From positions 1 through 64,000 of the forward strand of contig JAFLTC010000002.1 in assembly GCA_022510615.1 (NCBI GenBank): a DNA stretch of 64,000 nucleotides, in the 5' to 3' direction. Origin of the DNA: Lachnospiraceae bacterium (GTDB taxonomy: Bacteria > Bacillota > Clostridia > Lachnospirales > Lachnospiraceae). A model generated the notes under the pieces. That model was not told the DNA's origin, searched no databases, and worked only from the letters and a program-made list of their open reading frames with translations. Position numbers and translations under genes: made by a program. Shown piece by piece: positions 54,789 through 63,647 of the stretch; positions within the stretch are counted from its first letter, which is position 1, and each line of letters begins with the position of its first letter.

Positions 54789-54823
54789 ATACGGTAAGAA
54801 ATTGGAAAGCGAGAGTGAAATCT

Positions 54824-57658
54824 ATGGTAATACAGTCAAACAAGATTTCCCCTGACTTCAACGGCACGGAAGCGATAAAGAAGCTTGGCGTGTCAGTACA
54901 GAATGCCAAGGATGGCAGCGTTTCCAATGTATTTTTGGATCAGACAAAGGATTGTGCCGTACAAAAGGATTCGGGAAGCATTGTGTATACAAAGGCACAG
55001 GCAAAACAATTACATAAGGAAGATATGGAGTTTCTTGATGACGGAAGTATTTCTCCGGCAGCATTTATTAACAGTTGTATGACCGGAGAGGATATGCAGG
55101 CGTTGTCAGAAGAGGAAACTCCGTTGGAGGAATATACTTCATCCCAGCTGGAAAGAGCGGTAAGCCGTGTAAAAAAGCAACGTTCGGAGAAAGAACAGGC
55201 AGTGGAAAAACAGGTGGAAAAGGTACAGGACGAAAGAGATGCCAGAGAACGCCATCTGATGAAAAAGCTGCCGGATACTCCGGAAAATGTAGCACGGCTT
55301 TCTAATGCTGTCAATATGCTGACAGAACTGGATACTTTTTCGGCTGCGTCGATGAAGTTTTTTATTGCCAGAGGTGAGCGGATTACGCCGGAAGGGATAG
55401 GCGGAAGTCGAATTACAACAGGGATACAGGATAGTGTACCTGCCACCCAGCCGGAGGAGGATTTTTCCCAGATAGAAAAGCAGGCAGAAGATATTTTGCA
55501 GGAAGGTGGTCTGCCGGTTACGGAAGAGACAATGGGAATCGCAAAGTGGCTCTATGAAAATGATTTGCCGGTAACGGCGGAAAACGTCTTAACCTATCAG
55601 CAGATTGAGCAGTTAAAAAATGAAAGTACGGATACGTTGATTGCCCGGATTGTCGATGGAATGGTGGATGGAGTGAAACCGGAAAAGGCAGATTTGACAA
55701 AGCTGTCCACCGCAGAGGCAAAGGAGGTAATAGATGCCTTTCTGGCGACAGAGGAGGAGGTATTCCACCGGGAATACCCGACAGAAGCAGATTTCCTGCG
55801 GGCGAAACGCCAGATGGAGGAAATCCGTTTGACAATGACGATAGAAGCGGCCCGGACCATGTCAGCAAAGGGAATCACTTTAGATATTTCTTACTTGGAA
55901 GAAATTGTGGAGGAGCTAAAGCTCCAGGAGCAGCAGGCAAAGGAAGCTCTGTTGGCGGAGACGGGAACACCGATAGAAGAAAAGAACCTTACGGTTATGA
56001 CAGATACTGTACAGGCGGCGCAAAATGTATTGTTTGCACCGGTGGAACTGCTTGGTCAGACAAGACAAGCGGGATATGTCCAGACATTGACAGAGTTGTC
56101 GGATTCCGCCGTGACCTTAACCGAGCAGTACCAGAAAGCAGAGCAGTCTTATGAGGCAGTGGGAACAGAGGTCCGCCGGGATTTGGGCGATTCCATGACA
56201 AAGGCATTTCAGAATGTGGATGACATACTGAAAGAGCTGGATTTGGAAATCACCGGAAGAAATCAGAGGGCAGTGCGGATTCTGGCATATAACCAGATGC
56301 CGCTTGATAAAGAAAGTATTTTACAGATGAAGGAATATGACAGTCGTGTAACGACTCTTATGGAAAGTCTAAAGCCGGCTGTTGTTTCGGAAATGATAAA
56401 AAAGGAAATCAATCCGTTAGAGATGTCTTTGGAAGAATTATCCGAAGCGGTAAAAGAAGTGCAGACAGAAGCAAATACAGACGACATTTCTTTCCGTAAG
56501 TTCCTCTGGAAGATGGACCATCAAGGGGGCTTAAGCGAAGAGGAACGAAAGAGTATGATAGGCATTTACCGTTTGTTAGACAAGGTGGAGAAAAGCGATG
56601 GTGCTGCCATTGGTAAGGTAATAAAAGAAGGCAGGGAATTATCTTTTTCCTCTCTTTTGTCGGCGGTGCGGACGAAAAAGGCAGAGGGAATGGAATTCCG
56701 TGTGGATGATGATTTTGGAGGCTTAGAGGAGGTTATCACTACCAAAGAGTCGATTTCCGACCAGATTCAGGCGGCATACGATACTACCCTGACAACGGGA
56801 CTGGTGAAAAACCTGTCTCCGAAGGTGATGAGTGAGCTGCTCCATGATAAAGGCGATATGTCATTGGAGGCCTTTTTAGAGGCATGTGAGGCAGAGAACG
56901 AAACTGGAATGGCAGAGTATTATAATCATCTGGCAGATGAAGTGAAGGCAATTATGGCAGATGCGGGAGAGCGTCTTCAGGAGTTTTTGCAACAGCTGGA
57001 TTTACCGGATACACTGAATAATCTGGCAATGGCACAGGCATATATGAATAGCGGTGCAAAGGAATATGAGTCTCTTTGGAAGAAAGAGGAAAGTGAGGAA
57101 CTTCAGGAGATTTTTGATGAGCCGGAAAAACTAGATGAGTTCTACCAGAGCATGGACGAAAATCATGCAGAAAGCCTTGAGAAAAGCAGGGAAGGTGACG
57201 ATATAACATATGATGGCGTTGTTTCTCTGGCTAAAATGGCAAATAGCATTTCCTTTTACCAGAATCTGCGGAGCCATCAGGTATATGAAGTGCCGATTGT
57301 AACGGAGCGGGGGATTACAACCTGTAATGTTACGATAGAAGGAGGCAAAAGCCGGGAAAAGGGAACCGTAGAAATATATATGGAGTCGGAATCTCTCGGC
57401 AGTGTACAGGCGACCTTTAAGTTGAGCGGAAAGCACGTCAAAGGATTTATGACAGCGGAAAACGCCGACAGCCTGAAGGAATGCAGAAGCATTCTGGATA
57501 ACTTTGAAAAGGATTTGGAGGAGAGTGGGTTCACAATGGATAGTGAAAGCCTGATTCAGGGCAGCCGCCGTTCTCTTCATGTAGGAAATAAATCAGAGGG
57601 TGCAAAAAATCAGGATTTGTACCGGATAGCAAAAATGTTTATTGTAAACATTACCTAG
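54824..57658 (+). CDS. Large helical protein with FliK-like C-terminus, in flagellin operon
   Basis: A 944-residue, mostly alpha-helical, acidic protein. A charged coiled coil lies around 110-145 (VKKQRSEKEQAVEKQVEKVQ). The middle repeats a short motif like GLPVTEE / DLPVTAENV / MPLDKES. The last ~110 residues (TCNVTIEGGKSREKGTVEIY, SLGSVQATFKLSGKHVKGF, SILDNFEKDLEESGF) follow the Flg_hook pattern of FliK hook-length proteins. Start at ATG 54824 or GTG 54815; both lack a clear ribosome site. Followed after 29 bases by flagellin. Likely a flagellar assembly protein; role otherwise unknown. Confidence 0.72.
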   Translation: MVIQSNKISPDFNGTEAIKKLGVSVQNAKDGSVSNVFLDQTKDCAVQKDSGSIVYTKAQAKQLHKEDMEFLDDGSISPAAFINSCMTGEDMQALSEEETPLEEYTSSQLERAVSRVKKQRSEKEQAVEKQVEKVQDERDARERHLMKKLPDTPENVARLSNAVNMLTELDTFSAASMKFFIARGERITPEGIGGSRITTGIQDSVPATQPEEDFSQIEKQAEDILQEGGLPVTEETMGIAKWLYENDLPVTAENVLTYQQIEQLKNESTDTLIARIVDGMVDGVKPEKADLTKLSTAEAKEVIDAFLATEEEVFHREYPTEADFLRAKRQMEEIRLTMTIEAARTMSAKGITLDISYLEEIVEELKLQEQQAKEALLAETGTPIEEKNLTVMTDTVQAAQNVLFAPVELLGQTRQAGYVQTLTELSDSAVTLTEQYQKAEQSYEAVGTEVRRDLGDSMTKAFQNVDDILKELDLEITGRNQRAVRILAYNQMPLDKESILQMKEYDSRVTTLMESLKPAVVSEMIKKEINPLEMSLEELSEAVKEVQTEANTDDISFRKFLWKMDHQGGLSEEERKSMIGIYRLLDKVEKSDGAAIGKVIKEGRELSFSSLLSAVRTKKAEGMEFRVDDDFGGLEEVITTKESISDQIQAAYDTTLTTGLVKNLSPKVMSELLHDKGDMSLEAFLEACEAENETGMAEYYNHLADEVKAIMADAGERLQEFLQQLDLPDTLNNLAMAQAYMNSGAKEYESLWKKEESEELQEIFDEPEKLDEFYQSMDENHAESLEKSREGDDITYDGVVSLAKMANSISFYQNLRSHQVYEVPIVTERGITTCNVTIEGGKSREKGTVEIYMESESLGSVQATFKLSGKHVKGFMTAENADSLKECRSILDNFEKDLEESGFTMDSESLIQGSRRSLHVGNKSEGAKNQDLYRIAKMFIVNIT

Positions 57659-57687
57659 TGAAAACAAGACAGAAAGGACGATGAAGC

Positions 57688-59112
57688 ATGAAAATCAATA
57701 CGAATATAACAGCACTTCGTGCAAACTTTAATTTGAACAGTGTGCAGAAACGGCTGACGACAAGTACTTCCCGGTTATCCTCCGGATACCGGATAACCAA
57801 GGCAGCAGATGATGCGGCAGGTCTGGCGATTTCCCAGAAAATGCATGCTCAGATAAGGGGACTTGAGAGAGCGTCGAAAAACGGCTCCGATGGAATTTCC
57901 TTTATTCAGACGGCAGAGGGTTCGTTGACGGAGATTGAATCTCTTTTACAGCGTTGCCGTGAATTGTCCGTACAGGCTGCAAATAGCGGTATCTACACAA
58001 CAGATGACAAAATGGCAATCCAGAGAGAGATTGATTCTCTCCGGGCAGAGATAGACCGTTTGTCCGAACAGACGGAATTCAATACGATGACAGTATTAGA
58101 TGGCTCCTGCTGTCGGCAGTCCTCCTCCAACAATGTAGGAGTGAAGCTGATTTCAGCAAGCGATGATGTAAGCCTTACTACCTATTCCTTTACTGTGGAT
58201 GAAGAGGCTACTCAGGCAACGCTTACGTCCGGAACTATAGCTTTTGACCCGGATGAAGAGGTAACAGCAGATGCTGCCGGACAGATTGAGATTAACGGTG
58301 AGGTATTCCGCATCGAAGAAGGAGAGACTTATGAGAGTGTATTTGCTTCGATTCGTGATTACTGTGAGATGATGAATATTGATGTTGTGCCGGTAAATGC
58401 GGCGGGAGAAGAATGCGACCTGGCAAATGCCACAAATCTTTCCTTTATCACTAAGCGTTATGGTTCTTCCCAGAAAATTGAAATGACAACGGATAATCCG
58501 ATACTGGCGCAGAAGCTTGGTGTAGACGGTGCCGCCGCTACAGAGGGAAAGGATGCAAAGGTAACCCTGGATACAGAATCCGGATTCTCTACTACAGCAA
58601 CAGTATTTGTGGACGGTGCCCGTGTAACCGTATCGGACAGAGGCGGCTTTAGCATGCTCTTTGATGTATCTGGGGCTGAGGCAGGATCTCCTGCCGATAT
58701 TACGATGCTGGATGCCGGTTATGTGGCAATTCAGATTGGTGCCAATGAGGGTCAGACCATTGATCTTTCTATACCATCGGTAAATACGAAAGCACTGGCA
58801 GTTGACCTTTGCAATGTCTGCACGAAGAAAGGGGCTTCCGAGGCCATTACGGCATTTGATGATGCCATTCAGCAGATTTCCGCAATTCGCGCCAAGTTGG
58901 GAGCTTATCAGAATCGTCTGGATTCTGCTGTGGCAAATCTGGATACTTCCTCTCAGAATCTGACGGAAGCATGCTCTCGTATTGAGGATGTGGATATGTC
59001 CGAGGAAATGACTAGATATACCCAGTATAGCGTGCTGGTACAGGCAGGTACTTCTATGTTAGCCCAGGCAAATAACCAGCCACAGACTATTTTACAGCTT
59101 CTGCAAGGCTGA
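57688..59112 (+). CDS. Flagellin
   Basis: A 474-residue filament subunit. The N-terminal D0/D1 region (MKINTNITALRANFNLNSVQ, LSSGYRITKAADDAAGLAIS) and C-terminal D1/D0 region (YSVLVQAGTSMLAQANNQPQ, then TILQLLQG) are intact. The TLR5-contact site LLQRCRELSVQ (86-96) with E114 is conserved. The middle ~250 residues are a variable D2/D3 domain. It contains eight cysteines, which is unusual for a flagellin. AAAGGACGATGAAGC precedes the ATG. Downstream of the FliK-like gene and upstream of fliS. Confidence 0.96.
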   Translation: MKINTNITALRANFNLNSVQKRLTTSTSRLSSGYRITKAADDAAGLAISQKMHAQIRGLERASKNGSDGISFIQTAEGSLTEIESLLQRCRELSVQAANSGIYTTDDKMAIQREIDSLRAEIDRLSEQTEFNTMTVLDGSCCRQSSSNNVGVKLISASDDVSLTTYSFTVDEEATQATLTSGTIAFDPDEEVTADAAGQIEINGEVFRIEEGETYESVFASIRDYCEMMNIDVVPVNAAGEECDLANATNLSFITKRYGSSQKIEMTTDNPILAQKLGVDGAAATEGKDAKVTLDTESGFSTTATVFVDGARVTVSDRGGFSMLFDVSGAEAGSPADITMLDAGYVAIQIGANEGQTIDLSIPSVNTKALAVDLCNVCTKKGASEAITAFDDAIQQISAIRAKLGAYQNRLDSAVANLDTSSQNLTEACSRIEDVDMSEEMTRYTQYSVLVQAGTSMLAQANNQPQTILQLLQG

Positions 59113-59130
59113 TAGAGAGGATAAGTGAAT

Positions 59131-59610
59131 ATGGAAAAAGAAAGACTTCAGGAGTTTGCCGCAAGGGTTTCCCAGGCAAACCGAAGTGAGTTGGTAGTGA
59201 TAATATATGAAGCAGCATTAGCCAGCATAGCTGAGGGAAAAACCCGGCTGGAAGAAAATGAAATCAGTGAGGCACGAAAGGAAATTGAGCGTGCCAAGGG
59301 AATGCTGACGGAGCTGATGAGCAGCCTGGATATGCAGTATGAAATTTCCCATTATCTCCGCCAGTTGTACATTTATGCCTATCATGAGCTATGTCATGGA
59401 ATCGCTCTACGCCAGCCGGAGCTATTTACCCATGCATCGGATGTACTGGAGGGCTTGCTCCCTTCTTTCCGGGAAGTGGCAAAGCAGGATGATTCCGATG
59501 CCGTGATGGGAAACACCCAGCAGATTTATGCCGGACTTACCTATGGACGTGGCAGTTTGAATGAAACCACGGCTATGGATGTGGCAGATAATCGTGGGTT
59601 TGAAGCGTGA
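59131..59610 (+). CDS. fliS: Flagellar export chaperone FliS
   Basis: A 159-residue helical protein that binds the flagellin C-terminus and prevents early polymerisation. RLQEFAARVSQANRSELVVIIYEAAL and LDMQYEISHYLRQLYIYAYH match the FliS helices. A start 19 bases after the flagellin stop suggests coupling; GTG 59125 is an alternative. The C-terminus has ~25 extra residues rich in Asp, Gly and Thr that standard FliS lacks. A terminator follows. Confidence 0.93.
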   Translation: MEKERLQEFAARVSQANRSELVVIIYEAALASIAEGKTRLEENEISEARKEIERAKGMLTELMSSLDMQYEISHYLRQLYIYAYHELCHGIALRQPELFTHASDVLEGLLPSFREVAKQDDSDAVMGNTQQIYAGLTYGRGSLNETTAMDVADNRGFEA

Positions 59611-59664: not shown

Positions 59665-59696
59665 AGGGGCGCGCTTTTCAGCCGCCCCTTTTTTAC
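59665..59696 (+). terminator. Second terminator, also for the minus gene
   Basis: AGGGGCG / CGCCCCT with more GC pairing inside, followed by TTTTTT. In the minus direction it would serve the 59693 gene, whose stop codon is in its T-run. Confidence 0.75.
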
Positions 59697-59917
59697 AATA
59701 AATTTCCCTGTGCTTCTATGTTTTTCATCAGTCGAATCAGATACTTATAGCGAAAGGTTATGGCGTTCATTTCATAAATATAGCTGTCAATCAGATCAGG
59801 ATCTGACACATTTTCAAAGTTAGAATTGGCAATTTCCATGGACTGATTGAGTGCCTCAATTTCCTTCATCAATTCCTCCTTTGCCTGATTGACAGGGTTT
59901 ATTTTCCGTCGTCTCAT
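59693..59917 (-). CDS. DUF2508 (YaaL-like) small protein
   Basis: A 74-residue helical protein: MRRRKINPVNQAKEELMKEI then a helix and ANSNFENVSDPDLIDSYIYE, ending TFRYKYLIRLMK. This matches DUF2508 (YaaL), found in many Firmicutes. ATG 59917 follows GAAAGGAGAAATT on the minus strand; a longer in-frame start at 59959 is less likely. Single gene facing the flagellin operon. Function unknown. Confidence 0.75.
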   Translation of the reverse strand: MRRRKINPVNQAKEELMKEIEALNQSMEIANSNFENVSDPDLIDSYIYEMNAITFRYKYLIRLMKNIEAQGNLL

Positions 59918-60048
59918 AATTTCTCCTTTCTGGATTACGAACTGCTTGGAACACTTCATCTATTATCAGTATAGTCAAAATTTTCTAAAGTATTCATGTG
60001 ATAAAAAATCTTTAGTTTCCGTATTTTTATTGTAACGTGAAAAAAGTG

Positions 60049-60077
60049 TTGACAAGAAAAAAACTATGTGGTATTGT
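60049..60077 (+). promoter_or_regulatory. SigA-type promoter of the Tad pilus operon
   Basis: TTGACA (60049-60054), 17-base spacer, TATTGT (60072-60077). Transcription should start near 60084, 20-odd bases before the probable ATT start codon. Confidence 0.75.
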
Positions 60078-60106
60078 TGTACTCACATCACAATAGGAGG
60101 TGGGGA

Positions 60107-60613
60107 ATTATCCCAGGCAGCGAGTTATTTTTTCTCGTTCTCTTGCCGGCATCCCTATTCGATATTTCGCGGTACAAGGTGCCGAATGCACTGATTGTAT
60201 CCGCTCTTTTTATCAGCCTATTCAGGCGGTTTCAGTTACAGGGATTGATTGGTATATGTCCCTGGCTGGCAGGAATACTCATTCCGTTTACCCTATGCTA
60301 CTTTTTTTGCCGGTGCCGTATGTTAGGCGCATCGGACAGCAAAATATTTTCTGTGGTGGGAAGCTTTACCAGTATCAGCCTCATTCTAAAAATTATGGCA
60401 GTCTCCCTGTTCATAGGTGCCATTATGGCTGTTATCAAAATGATTCTCAAAAAAAATTTCAGAAAACGGTTCCAGTGTTTATGGAGCTATGTATCCTGTG
60501 TGTTGCAGGAGAAAAAATTGTATTCCTATTATGACAAGAAACAGGAGGGAGAGGATGGTGTCATTCCCTTTACTGTCGCCATTTCCCTTGCGGTACTCCT
60601 GTGTGTGTATTAA
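60107..60613 (+). CDS. tadV: A24-family prepilin peptidase (TadV/CpaA)
   Basis: A membrane aspartic peptidase, 168 residues if the start is ATT 60107. FDISRYKVPNALI holds the first catalytic Asp and MLGASDSKIFSVVG (GxGDxK variant) the second; five or six membrane helices. It would cleave the Flp prepilin leader. Start problem: the only ribosome site, AATAGGAGGTGGGG, is followed by ATT-ATC, not ATG/GTG/TTG. A GTG at 60068 lies within the promoter spacer, before the predicted transcript start. An AUU start, as in infC, would keep expression low. First gene of the Tad run. Confidence 0.78.
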   Translation: MIPGSELFFLVLLPASLFDISRYKVPNALIVSALFISLFRRFQLQGLIGICPWLAGILIPFTLCYFFCRCRMLGASDSKIFSVVGSFTSISLILKIMAVSLFIGAIMAVIKMILKKNFRKRFQCLWSYVSCVLQEKKLYSYYDKKQEGEDGVIPFTVAISLAVLLCVY

Positions 60614-60626
60614 GAGAGGTGGTTGG

Positions 60627-61664
60627 ATGGAACGTATTATTTTATTGCTCTATCTGAAAGATGTGGAGTATGGGGGACGGCTTTTACGTTTCCTGATGGG
60701 AAAGAAAAATCCCATGCTTCACCCAGAGTTAGTGACGGTAAAGGAAAAAGTAAAAATGAGGGTAGGCTCAGAGAAAGAATCGGTGGCGGTGCTGACGGAT
60801 TGCATGGAAATAGAGGAGGACGAGAAACAACAGATTATTTATTTGTCCAACGAGCAGGACGCAAAAAAGAAAAAAATCTTTCAGTATCAGAAAGCAGAAG
60901 GAATTTACCGGGAGCTGCTTTTGCAGCTGGGAATAGCGGTGGAGCAGGAAGGTGTTACCGATACGGAAACGACGAAAAAGGGTGTGTACTGTGTCTTTTC
61001 CACAGAGGGAACATCAGGGACAGCATTGGCGGTATCACTGTCCCAATATCTAGGGAATCAAGGGAAGTGCCTGTATCTGAATTTATCCGGATTTCCTATC
61101 TTTTTCGGGGAGGAGCTAAGAGAAAATCCATTGATTCAGGAAAAGGGGCTTGCCGAGCTTTTATTCTTTGTCCGCCAGAAAAGTTTTTCAAAGGAGCAGG
61201 AAGAACTGCGAAAACCATTTGGCAGTGCCTATATGCTGACACCGGTTTCAAATTTTAAGGATTTGTTAGATTGTTCTTTCGAGGACTGGAAAGCATTTTT
61301 TGAGACTGTCATTTCAGAATGTGGCTATGACAGCATTGTGGTGGAGATGGGACAGCTCTTTGAATACACATTGGATTTAATGGAGCAGGCTGACCGGATT
61401 TTTATTATCCGAGAGCCGGGAGTTTTTGGTAAAATCCATACGGCTGTCTTTCGCCAGTATTGCAAAATGGACCAAAAAGAGTCGTTAGAAAGGCGGGCAG
61501 AATATATCCGGCTTCCCTTTAGCAAAGAAGAATGGGAGGAAGAAATTTCCTGCCAGTCCCTAAGAGAGCTGTCGCAGAACAGCCAGAAAATGGACGAAAT
61601 TCGTAGATTACTGGAGGAAGGTGAAATGGGAGAGGAGGTTTGTATCATTGAAGACCATGGATGA
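60627..61664 (+). CDS. TadZ/CpaE-like ATPase homologue with degenerate P-loop
   Basis: A 345-residue cytoplasmic protein. The central region is MinD/ParA-like (GVYCVFSTEGTSGTALAVSL; then YLNLSGF; EELRENPLIQEKGLAELLF; YDSIVVEMGQ). In typical TadZ the loop reads GGxGKT/ST; here it is STEGTSGT with the Lys missing, so ATP hydrolysis is doubtful. The N-terminal ~110 residues resemble a response-regulator-like localisation domain. ATG 60627 has GAGAGGTGGTTGG ahead. It localises the Tad machine. Ends inside the TadA gene. Confidence 0.78.
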   Translation: MERIILLLYLKDVEYGGRLLRFLMGKKNPMLHPELVTVKEKVKMRVGSEKESVAVLTDCMEIEEDEKQQIIYLSNEQDAKKKKIFQYQKAEGIYRELLLQLGIAVEQEGVTDTETTKKGVYCVFSTEGTSGTALAVSLSQYLGNQGKCLYLNLSGFPIFFGEELRENPLIQEKGLAELLFFVRQKSFSKEQEELRKPFGSAYMLTPVSNFKDLLDCSFEDWKAFFETVISECGYDSIVVEMGQLFEYTLDLMEQADRIFIIREPGVFGKIHTAVFRQYCKMDQKESLERRAEYIRLPFSKEEWEEEISCQSLRELSQNSQKMDEIRRLLEEGEMGEEVCIIEDHG

Positions 61665-62904
61665 AACAAGAGAAAAAATCCGGGAAAGAGTACTGGAAGA
61701 AATACCGGCAGGGGTGGAAATTAATGACGATGAACTAATGGAAATTATTGAGAGAGAAATTGAGCAGGCAGCAAAAGATTGTTATATCCGGTTGGAAAAA
61801 AAGAAAGAAATAAGGCATTTAATTTTTAACTCCATACGGAAAATGGATGTGCTACAGGATATTCTGGAGGATGAAGAGATTACGGAAATTATGGTTAATG
61901 GCCCAGACCATATTTTTGTGGAAAGGGAGGGAAAGCTAAGAGAAACGGGTATGAAATTTGAGCATCAGGGCAGGTTAGAGGACATCGCTCAGCAGATTGC
62001 CTCGGAGGGAAACCGTATTGTCAATGAATCCAATCCGATTCTGGATGCCAGACTGGCAGACGGCTCTCGCGTCAACATTGTAGTGCCACCCATAGCCATA
62101 GAAGGACCGGTCATTACAATCCGGAAATTTCCAAAGGAAGCCATGACAATGAAGAAACTGATTCAGATGGGAGCGGTTACTGAGGAAGTAGAAGAATTTC
62201 TTCGAAAGCTGGTAGAGGCAAAGTATAATATTTTTATTTCCGGGGGAACCGGTGCGGGAAAGACCACCTTTTTAAATATCCTGTCAAATTTTATTCCCCA
62301 TAATGAGAGAGTTATCACCATTGAAGATTCGGCGGAACTTCAGATTCAGAATATTGATAATCTGGTCCGTCTGGAGGCACGAAATGCCAATGTAGAGGGA
62401 AAAAATGAGGTGACGATAAGAGACCTGGTAAAAAGTGCACTCAGGATGCGCCCGGACCGTATTATTGTAGGAGAAATCAGGGATGCGGCTGCCATTGACC
62501 TTTTGACCGCTATGAATACCGGACATGATGGCAGCCTTTCCACAGGCCATGCCAACAGTCCGGCCGATATGCTAAACCGCTTAGAGACTCTTGTCCTTAT
62601 GGGAATGGACATACCGTTAGCGGCAATCCGGCAGCAGATAGCCTCCGGCATTGATCTAGTCGTACATTTGGGGCGCCTACGGGATAAGTCCAGAAAGGTA
62701 CTGGAGGTGACAGAAGTAGGAGGTGTATCCGAGGGGAAAATCCGCTTATTCCCCCTTTATGTTTTTGAGGAATCAGGGGAAAAAGACGGACGGGTATTGG
62801 GTGAGCTAAAGGCAACCGGACAGAAATTAAGGGCAGTGGATAAGTGCAGGCGTGCCGGGGTGGAGGTGGCGGGCATGGAAAACAGAGAAGGGAGGCTTGT
62901 ATAA
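61648..62904 (+). CDS. tadA: Tad pilus assembly ATPase (TadA/CpaF)
   Basis: A 418-residue hexameric motor ATPase. Asp box/ITEIMVNGPDHIFVEREGKL, DARLADGSRVNIVVPPIA, Walker A SGGTGAGKTTFLN, VITIEDSAELQI, and RMRPDRIIVGEIRDAAAIDLL with TGHDGSLSTGHANSP make the PulE/TadA signature. The TTG at 61648 is nine bases after GAGGAGG and is preferred; ATG 61657 is possible but too far from the site. It overlaps the TadZ-like gene by 17 bases. Confidence 0.95.
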   Translation: MKTMDETREKIRERVLEEIPAGVEINDDELMEIIEREIEQAAKDCYIRLEKKKEIRHLIFNSIRKMDVLQDILEDEEITEIMVNGPDHIFVEREGKLRETGMKFEHQGRLEDIAQQIASEGNRIVNESNPILDARLADGSRVNIVVPPIAIEGPVITIRKFPKEAMTMKKLIQMGAVTEEVEEFLRKLVEAKYNIFISGGTGAGKTTFLNILSNFIPHNERVITIEDSAELQIQNIDNLVRLEARNANVEGKNEVTIRDLVKSALRMRPDRIIVGEIRDAAAIDLLTAMNTGHDGSLSTGHANSPADMLNRLETLVLMGMDIPLAAIRQQIASGIDLVVHLGRLRDKSRKVLEVTEVGGVSEGKIRLFPLYVFEESGEKDGRVLGELKATGQKLRAVDKCRRAGVEVAGMENREGRLV

Positions 62905-62909
62905 GGAAT

Positions 62910-63647
62910 ATGCCGGACTATAAAAACTATCAGTTTTCCAAAAGGGAATCTATTTGGTATATGCTTTTTGGCATGGCAGGAGCCTTTGCCGTATTCTATC
63001 TTTTTTATCAGAGCGTTATATTTTGTCTGCCGCTTTCTGTGGCAGGAGGTGTTGGGATTCTTTTTTACATGAAAAGAAATCTGGCCAAAAAACAGCAGTG
63101 GAATCTCATGGTGGAGTTTAAGGATGCCATGGACAGTCTGGTCTCTGCACTGGCAGCAGGATATTCTATGGAAAATGCCATATCGGAGGCGTACCGGGAT
63201 TTACAGTTAATGTATGGAAGGGAGACGCCGATGCTCTTGGAATTAAAAAATATGGAACAAAGGATAAGGTTAAAACACCCGTTAGATGAACTGTTGTTAG
63301 ATATGGGAAGAAGAAGTGGGCTGGAAGATATTCTGACCTTTGCTCAAATCTATGCGACGGCACGAAAAAGTGGAGGGAACCTTGTCCGGGTCATGAAGCG
63401 GACCGCAGATAACATCGGAGAGAAAATGGAGATGCAGCGGGAAATACAGACAATGATAGCCGGAAAGAAAATGGAGTCAATCTGTATGATGATTATTCCT
63501 TTGTGTATTATCCTTTATCTTCAGCTATTTTCACCGGGCTTTCTAGACCCCCTCTATAGCAGACTGGAGGGTCGGCTCTTTATGACCGGGGCACTGGTGA
63601 TATATGGAGCAGCCGTTTTCTGGAGCCACCATATTATGAAGTTTTAA
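62910..63647 (+). CDS. tadB: Tad pilus inner-membrane protein TadB
   Basis: A 245-residue T2SF-type membrane protein: two N-terminal membrane segments (~15-55), a T2SF domain (MVEFKDAMDSLVSALAAGYS, ENAISEAYRDL, DMGRRSGLEDILTFAQIYAT, GGNLVRVMKRTADNI) and two C-terminal helices. It forms the platform for TadA. ATG 62910 starts six bases after the tadA stop, with AAGGA just upstream. The next gene starts 13 bases after its stop. Confidence 0.9.
   Translation: MPDYKNYQFSKRESIWYMLFGMAGAFAVFYLFYQSVIFCLPLSVAGGVGILFYMKRNLAKKQQWNLMVEFKDAMDSLVSALAAGYSMENAISEAYRDLQLMYGRETPMLLELKNMEQRIRLKHPLDELLLDMGRRSGLEDILTFAQIYATARKSGGNLVRVMKRTADNIGEKMEMQREIQTMIAGKKMESICMMIIPLCIILYLQLFSPGFLDPLYSRLEGRLFMTGALVIYGAAVFWSHHIMKF

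Follow-up and report, generated by a model that had tools for sequence, protein, structure and literature searches.

The prepilin peptidase gene of a Tad-type operon appears to start at a non-AUG codon in a Lachnospiraceae bacterium and many of its relatives

The infC gene, which encodes IF3, starts at AUU, AUC or AUA (AUH) and is autoregulated, and the pcnB gene of E. coli has an AUU start and a product that is kept low. With a strong ribosome site to hold the 30S subunit in place, the initiator tRNA can read AUH despite a mismatch at the third position, and IF3 disfavours AUH starts. To our knowledge, few bacterial genes besides infC keep an AUH start over evolutionary time. According to the available text of a study of Staphylococcus aureus (PMC13009471), cvfC1 (AUU), ccpN (AUA) and infC (AUA) have extended Shine–Dalgarno sequences, and non-canonical starts yield about 10% of AUG output, ccpN reaching as much as 30% in rich medium. 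Reduced output of AUU and AUA reporters is described there and in the accessible part of a second paper (PMC13068326), which also reports fixed, experimentally confirmed non-canonical starts for Listeria infC (ATT) and rnhC (ATC). In Streptomyces, a weak GTC start limits the amount of SigR protein (PMC5472188, available portion), and two Clostridium species accept an AUU start on an engineered gene (PMC11040787, available portion). This type of control is thus already known (infC, cvfC1, ccpN, sigR); neither its use in pilus maturation nor its occurrence across many genera was found reported in the literature searched, and no report of a prepilin peptidase with a non-AUG start was found among the literature matches listed, which comprised titles and the beginnings of abstracts and mostly did not extend to subscription papers.

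The gene considered here encodes an A24 (prepilin) peptidase and lies in the window, by which we mean the whole stretch of 64,000 nucleotides that was analysed. Like infC of the same genus, it carries an AUH codon after a strong ribosome site; unlike infC, which encodes a translation factor with feedback, it encodes a peptidase without a known feedback partner. The pcnB gene shares the AUU-type start and differs in being an unrelated gene of an unrelated organism. The cvfC1 and ccpN genes likewise combine a conserved non-canonical start with an extended Shine–Dalgarno sequence, and in the text available their reduced yield was measured in S. aureus; however, cvfC1 is conserved among Staphylococci and ccpN between S. 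aureus and B. subtilis, whereas the peptidase gene belongs to Clostridia and switches frequently to standard starts (PMC13009471). The available account of Listeria infC and rnhC offers the same likeness of a non-canonical start in other genes of another organism (PMC13068326), and that of Streptomyces sigR the likeness of a weak start, although there the codon is GTC, the gene is a regulator, and an effect of IF3 was measured (PMC5472188). In domain and context the gene resembles TadV/CpaA prepilin peptidases, with an A24 domain and an operon containing TadZ-like, TadA-type ATPase and T2SSF proteins; it differs from them in the type of start codon, ATG forms being found in 13 of 37 species of its genus. 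The operon and its nearest upstream neighbor are as follows:

59693–59959, minus strand: small DUF2508 gene, the nearest upstream gene
60110–60613, plus strand: A24 (prepilin) peptidase from its most likely start, 167 codons plus TAA (Pfam PF01478)
60627–61664, plus strand: TadZ-like gene, second in the operon, with an ATG start
61621–62904, plus strand: TadA-type secretion ATPase, given from its first GTG (Pfam T2SSE, 2.6e-59)
62844–63647, plus strand: T2SSF-type membrane protein (Pfam T2SSF, 1.8e-11)

The peptidase sequence occupies a 186-codon open frame (60053–60613, plus strand, with TAA ending at 60613) that matches Pfam Peptidase_A24 with an E value of 5e-9 and 37 bits against a cut-off of 26.5, and all 31 members of one alignment (A3) match this model at E 0.01. 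A24 peptidases have two catalytic aspartates, the second within a GxGD motif. Both aspartate columns are invariant across 21 aligned peptidase sequences, and the GxGD position reads GASD in 26 of the 37 genus rows (window included), GAGD in nine and GAAD in two. In five species pairs compared without gaps, dN is 0.05–0.18 against a dS of 0.20–0.78 (dN/dS about 0.14–0.25), values that indicate a reading frame under purifying selection.

The peptidase gene heads a Tad-type operon, with the genes for a TadA-type ATPase and a TadB/C-type protein in its neighborhood, as recognized by T2SSE and T2SSF. The best NCBIfam model for the ATPase is TIGR03819 (TadA family), with a score under its cut-off; the T2SSF-type protein has no NCBIfam match, and we take it to be TadB-like. 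The product of the second gene has no Pfam or NCBIfam match and is called TadZ-like, a provisional name that follows its position; since 84 of the 88 loci from other genera of the family have a relative of this gene next after the peptidase, most of these loci represent the same operon. The TadZ-like gene of locus L008 (genome G006) apparently starts at ATA, its sister species L006 having ATG, and TadZ-like genes with no standard start at all also occur in L124 (ATT), L137 (ATA) and L133 (CTG). The DUF2508 gene is divergent from the peptidase gene, the upstream region being common to both. Flagellar genes (54815–59610) precede the Tad operon and encode flagellin and FliS as well as a DUF6240 protein whose match to FliK is weak. 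Because the upstream neighbor is on the minus strand and fliS, the nearest upstream plus-strand gene, ends at 59610, about 500 bases away, translational coupling of the peptidase to an upstream gene is unlikely. Upstream of and around the start, the window contains these features:

60049–60054, plus strand: −35 box TTGACA, from a promoter scan, recurring in relatives
60072–60077, plus strand: −10 box TATTGT preceded by TG, from a promoter scan
60068–60079, plus strand: in-frame GTG (60068), TTG (60074) and TTG (60077), inside the promoter and without a ribosome site
60095–60102, plus strand: Shine–Dalgarno sequence AGGAGGTG, conserved in relatives
60107–60109, plus strand: ATT, the start proposed in an earlier note on this DNA; a variable column among species with AUH
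60110–60112, plus strand: ATC, the codon at which translation most likely starts; AUH there in 21 of 22 species with AUH

Both promoter boxes named in the earlier note were recovered, separated by a spacer of 17 bases; the scan returned five promoter-like sites against 2.3 expected by chance and is weak evidence on its own, and the layout of the boxes recurs in relatives together with the leader CACATCACAA. This leader, at 60084–60094, links the −10 box to the ribosome site and shows good conservation among AUH species. The transcript would begin shortly downstream of the −10 box, and because the predicted leader is then about 20–25 bases long, a riboswitch was set aside. As the earlier note described, a strong ribosome site is followed by ATT-ATC-CCA in the frame of the peptidase: the window reads AATAGGAGGTGGGG, with AGGAGG at 60095–60100, and then ATT, ATC and CCA. 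The distance from AGGAGG is nine bases to ATC 60110 and six, which is acceptable, to ATT 60107; the window contains no standard start at usable spacing after this AGGAGG.

We compared the start region across the genus in 39 genomes, 38 of which have a match and 37 a readable start when aligned on protein (G003 has no match, and the locus of G001, L046, ends before the start). One contig present under two labels (L012 and L031) was counted once, and the 37 include two genes interrupted by stops (L007, TTG; L044, ATG) and one cut at a contig end (L047, AUH). An AUH codon lies 7–9 bases past the ribosome site in 22 of the 37 species (ATC 13, ATT 6, ATA 3, tallied by hand); the other 15 have ATG (13), TTG (1) or GTG (1). 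A scripted call found 21 non-canonical starts against 22 by hand; the script scores L004, where an internal AGGAGGTGAG-TTG is present as well, as standard. The ribosome site is AGGAGG in 19 of the 22 AUH species; L006 and L009 have GGGAGG instead, and L043 has a weaker run of G. No standard codon occurs between the in-frame stop and AUH in L026, L027, L028, L030, L041, L043 and L047, and in L028 (G024), whose in-frame stop precedes the first aligned codon by nine codons, none occurs from that stop as far as the catalytic aspartate.

Of the 22 AUH species, 21 have AUH in the column of ATC 60110, the exception being L012 with ATT one codon later; such a column without G equals the pattern of a plain isoleucine codon and alone proves nothing. 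The column of ATT 60107 is ATT in five of the 22 and otherwise AGT, CTT, GCG, AAT or AAA. Because the latter column varies and the former is conserved, ATT 60107 is the less likely start, and the alignment points to AUC 60110 as the more likely start in the window, with AUU 60107 as the second candidate. The alignment that the earlier note had called for thus upheld the conservation of the ribosome site and an AUU-type non-AUG start, which relatives support well, and moved the probable start one codon downstream of the AUU that had been named. A sequencing error, which the earlier note had allowed for, is excluded, with the assemblies of 21 other species carrying AUH at this place.

A wider survey covered 88 start regions from 84 genomes of the family outside the genus. 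A profile search matched 119 genomes out of 200 from the family (nearly one for each genus); 28 loci from this search and 60 more make up the 88, and further matches, mostly shorter, were left out. A start was scored as standard if, in the stretch from the in-frame stop to an N-terminal anchor, any ATG, GTG or TTG was preceded by four or more ribosome-site bases at a spacing of 4–11, and as non-canonical if none did and ATT, ATC, ATA or CTG satisfied the same rule. By this rule 47 loci are standard, 30 non-canonical (ATT 15, ATC 9, ATA 4, CTG 2; hence 28 AUH) and 11 neither. No ATG, GTG or TTG of any kind occurs up to the anchor in 16 of the 88 loci, 14 among the 30 and two among the 11; six of the 30 non-canonical calls rest on no more than four ribosome-site bases, and at least one call, that of L185, is doubtful, since a GTG there misses the spacing limits by one base. 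Non-canonical starts are thus conserved across species, in 22 of 37 in the genus and 30 of 88 loci from other genera. AUH is not obligatory, since standard starts occur in 15 of the 37 species in the genus and in 47 of the 88 family loci, with 11 of the 88 assigned to neither type.

Three genes served as controls. For LspA in the same family, 28 starts are standard, one non-canonical and one neither, with no locus lacking a standard codon, and the sole non-canonical call is doubtful because of ATGs there without a ribosome site. The difference from the peptidase is significant in the genus (21/37 vs 1/30, Fisher p 1.5e-6) and in the other genera (30/88 vs 1/30, p 5.5e-4), both uncorrected for relatedness. 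For the neighboring TadZ-like gene, with its start anchored by profile, non-canonical calls number 1 of 34 against 20 of 34 for the peptidase at the same genus loci (Fisher p 5e-7) and 5 of 70 against 24 of 70 at the same family loci (p 1e-4), relatedness again ignored. The positive control, infC of the genus (loci L268 and L089–L118), is called non-canonical in 30 of 31 (AUA, AUC or AUU), with an anchor set just before an internal ATG that favours this call; 18 of the 31 have no standard codon in the stretch from in-frame stop to anchor, and infC of the genome of the window is scored with an AUA start, in a frame that runs into a stretch of N. Beyond the family, other families of the class give a weak signal, with 5 of 25 non-canonical (p 0.08 vs LspA); ATA stands after a ribosome-like site in L239, L240, L241 and L243, which belong to two other families, with an in-frame GTG also nearby.

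The mean match to the ribosome site is longer in non-canonical than in standard peptidase genes, at 7.8 vs 5.8 bases in the genus and 7.0 vs 5.9 in the family, and is 5.0 vs 5.1 bases in the set from other families of the class. The longer match fits the extended Shine–Dalgarno pattern described in the available text for S. aureus. We consider it very probable that the first gene of the Tad operon starts at AUC 60110, or possibly at AUU 60107, with a strong Shine–Dalgarno sequence, weak initiation and a scarce enzyme. The strong Shine–Dalgarno sequence would hold the 30S subunit on the peptidase mRNA, the initiator tRNA would read AUH with a third-position mismatch, presumably bringing in fMet, and initiation would be inefficient, so that the peptidase would stay scarce. 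That AUH lowers the yield of the peptidase may fairly be expected from the published AUU and AUA reporters, and the low yield is probably under selection. An odd initiator tRNA was also considered: the genome of the window, which is incomplete, has 28 tRNA matches with ordinary anticodons only, including one for Met and none for Ile, which settles nothing.

Weak initiation at AUH could also serve regulation, with an infC-type start making pilus assembly follow the status of IF3 or the 30S subunit, a reading that we regard as possible though not probable. It draws on the AUH start of infC in 30 of 31 loci of the same genus and on the repression of the non-canonical sigR start by IF3 in Streptomyces (PMC5472188, available portion); however, a low constitutive yield accounts for the sequence equally well, and coupling to IF3 is possible without being favoured over plain low yield. 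By analogy with infC, the level of the peptidase might rise when free IF3 falls, a sensitivity suggested solely by the AUH codon type common to the peptidase and infC of the same genus. The broader proposal, that the Tad prepilin peptidase of many Clostridia joins infC as a second conserved gene of its type, with an AUH start coupling pilus maturation to the status of IF3 or the 30S subunit, is rather doubtful and we offer it tentatively.

It is unlikely that AUH is a neutral or slightly harmful variant that drifts without a regulatory role. Such drift would agree with the frequent changes of start type across genera, 20–21 on a poorly resolved family tree of 102 rows, of which the well-supported branches force just three changes of the non-canonical label. 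In the genus tree, at least four changes of the AUH label are required; AUH forms two groups there and ATG one group of 11, and a single AUH origin is borderline rejected (p 0.048). The third letter among AUH rows of the genus has changed at least eight times among T, C and A, a count that by itself cannot separate a start from an isoleucine codon; yet among the 16 species L001–L016, ATG appears in L016 alone and at another codon. The bias is also far weaker in the neighboring TadZ-like gene, which argues against drift. The start type thus switches, but AUH persists far more often than non-canonical starts do in the controls.

A start at a standard codon in the ribosome site (the GTG in AGGAGGTG) or in the first membrane helix (TTG or ATG; TTG 60143 in the window) is quite improbable. 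Such codons exist in many relatives, and an in-frame GTG or ATG overlaps AGGAGG or lies at most two bases past it in 11 of the 22 AUH species (L002, L004, L005, L006, L008, L009, L010, L013, L014, L015 and L029). These codons are poorly spaced, which does not make them impossible, and they leave genuine uncertainty in those 11 species; AUH stands at proper spacing without a usable standard start, with 11 of the 22 keeping a poorly spaced GTG or ATG. In the window, however, the GTG within the ribosome site is out of frame, and TTG 60143 is six codons before the catalytic aspartate, so that a start there would delete most of the first helix. Nor do such codons exist in L028 before the aspartate or in 16 of the 88 family loci up to the anchor.

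The earlier note had counted GTG 60068 as the sole standard start in frame upstream; two further codons in or next to the −10 box, TTG 60074 and TTG 60077, are also in frame, and all three are without a ribosome site. Because AGGAGG-to-start distances differ by one base between close relatives (nine bases in L001 and eight in L002, whose proteins are 83% identical), the DNA upstream of the start is not coding. A start at any of these codons on a transcript beginning further upstream is scarcely credible, for although the frame is open from 60053, the codons lie inside the promoter, and such a start is ruled out in relatives by the one-base differences and by in-frame stops 4–5 codons before the first aligned codon in L002, L005, L008, L010, L014 and L015.

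With AUH as the apparent start in the window species and many relatives, the peptidase start scores as non-canonical in 30 of the 84 genomes from outside the genus, almost every one of which represents a different genus, and that of its operon neighbor seldom does. These loci are a natural collection in which to ask why weak starts persist. Gene callers restricted to ATG, GTG and TTG would assign such genes a wrong N-terminus. For the biology of these organisms, the AUH starts of the peptidase suggest a translational throttling of pilus processing and, if the tie to IF3 or the 30S subunit were true, pilus assembly would respond to the state of the translation machinery.
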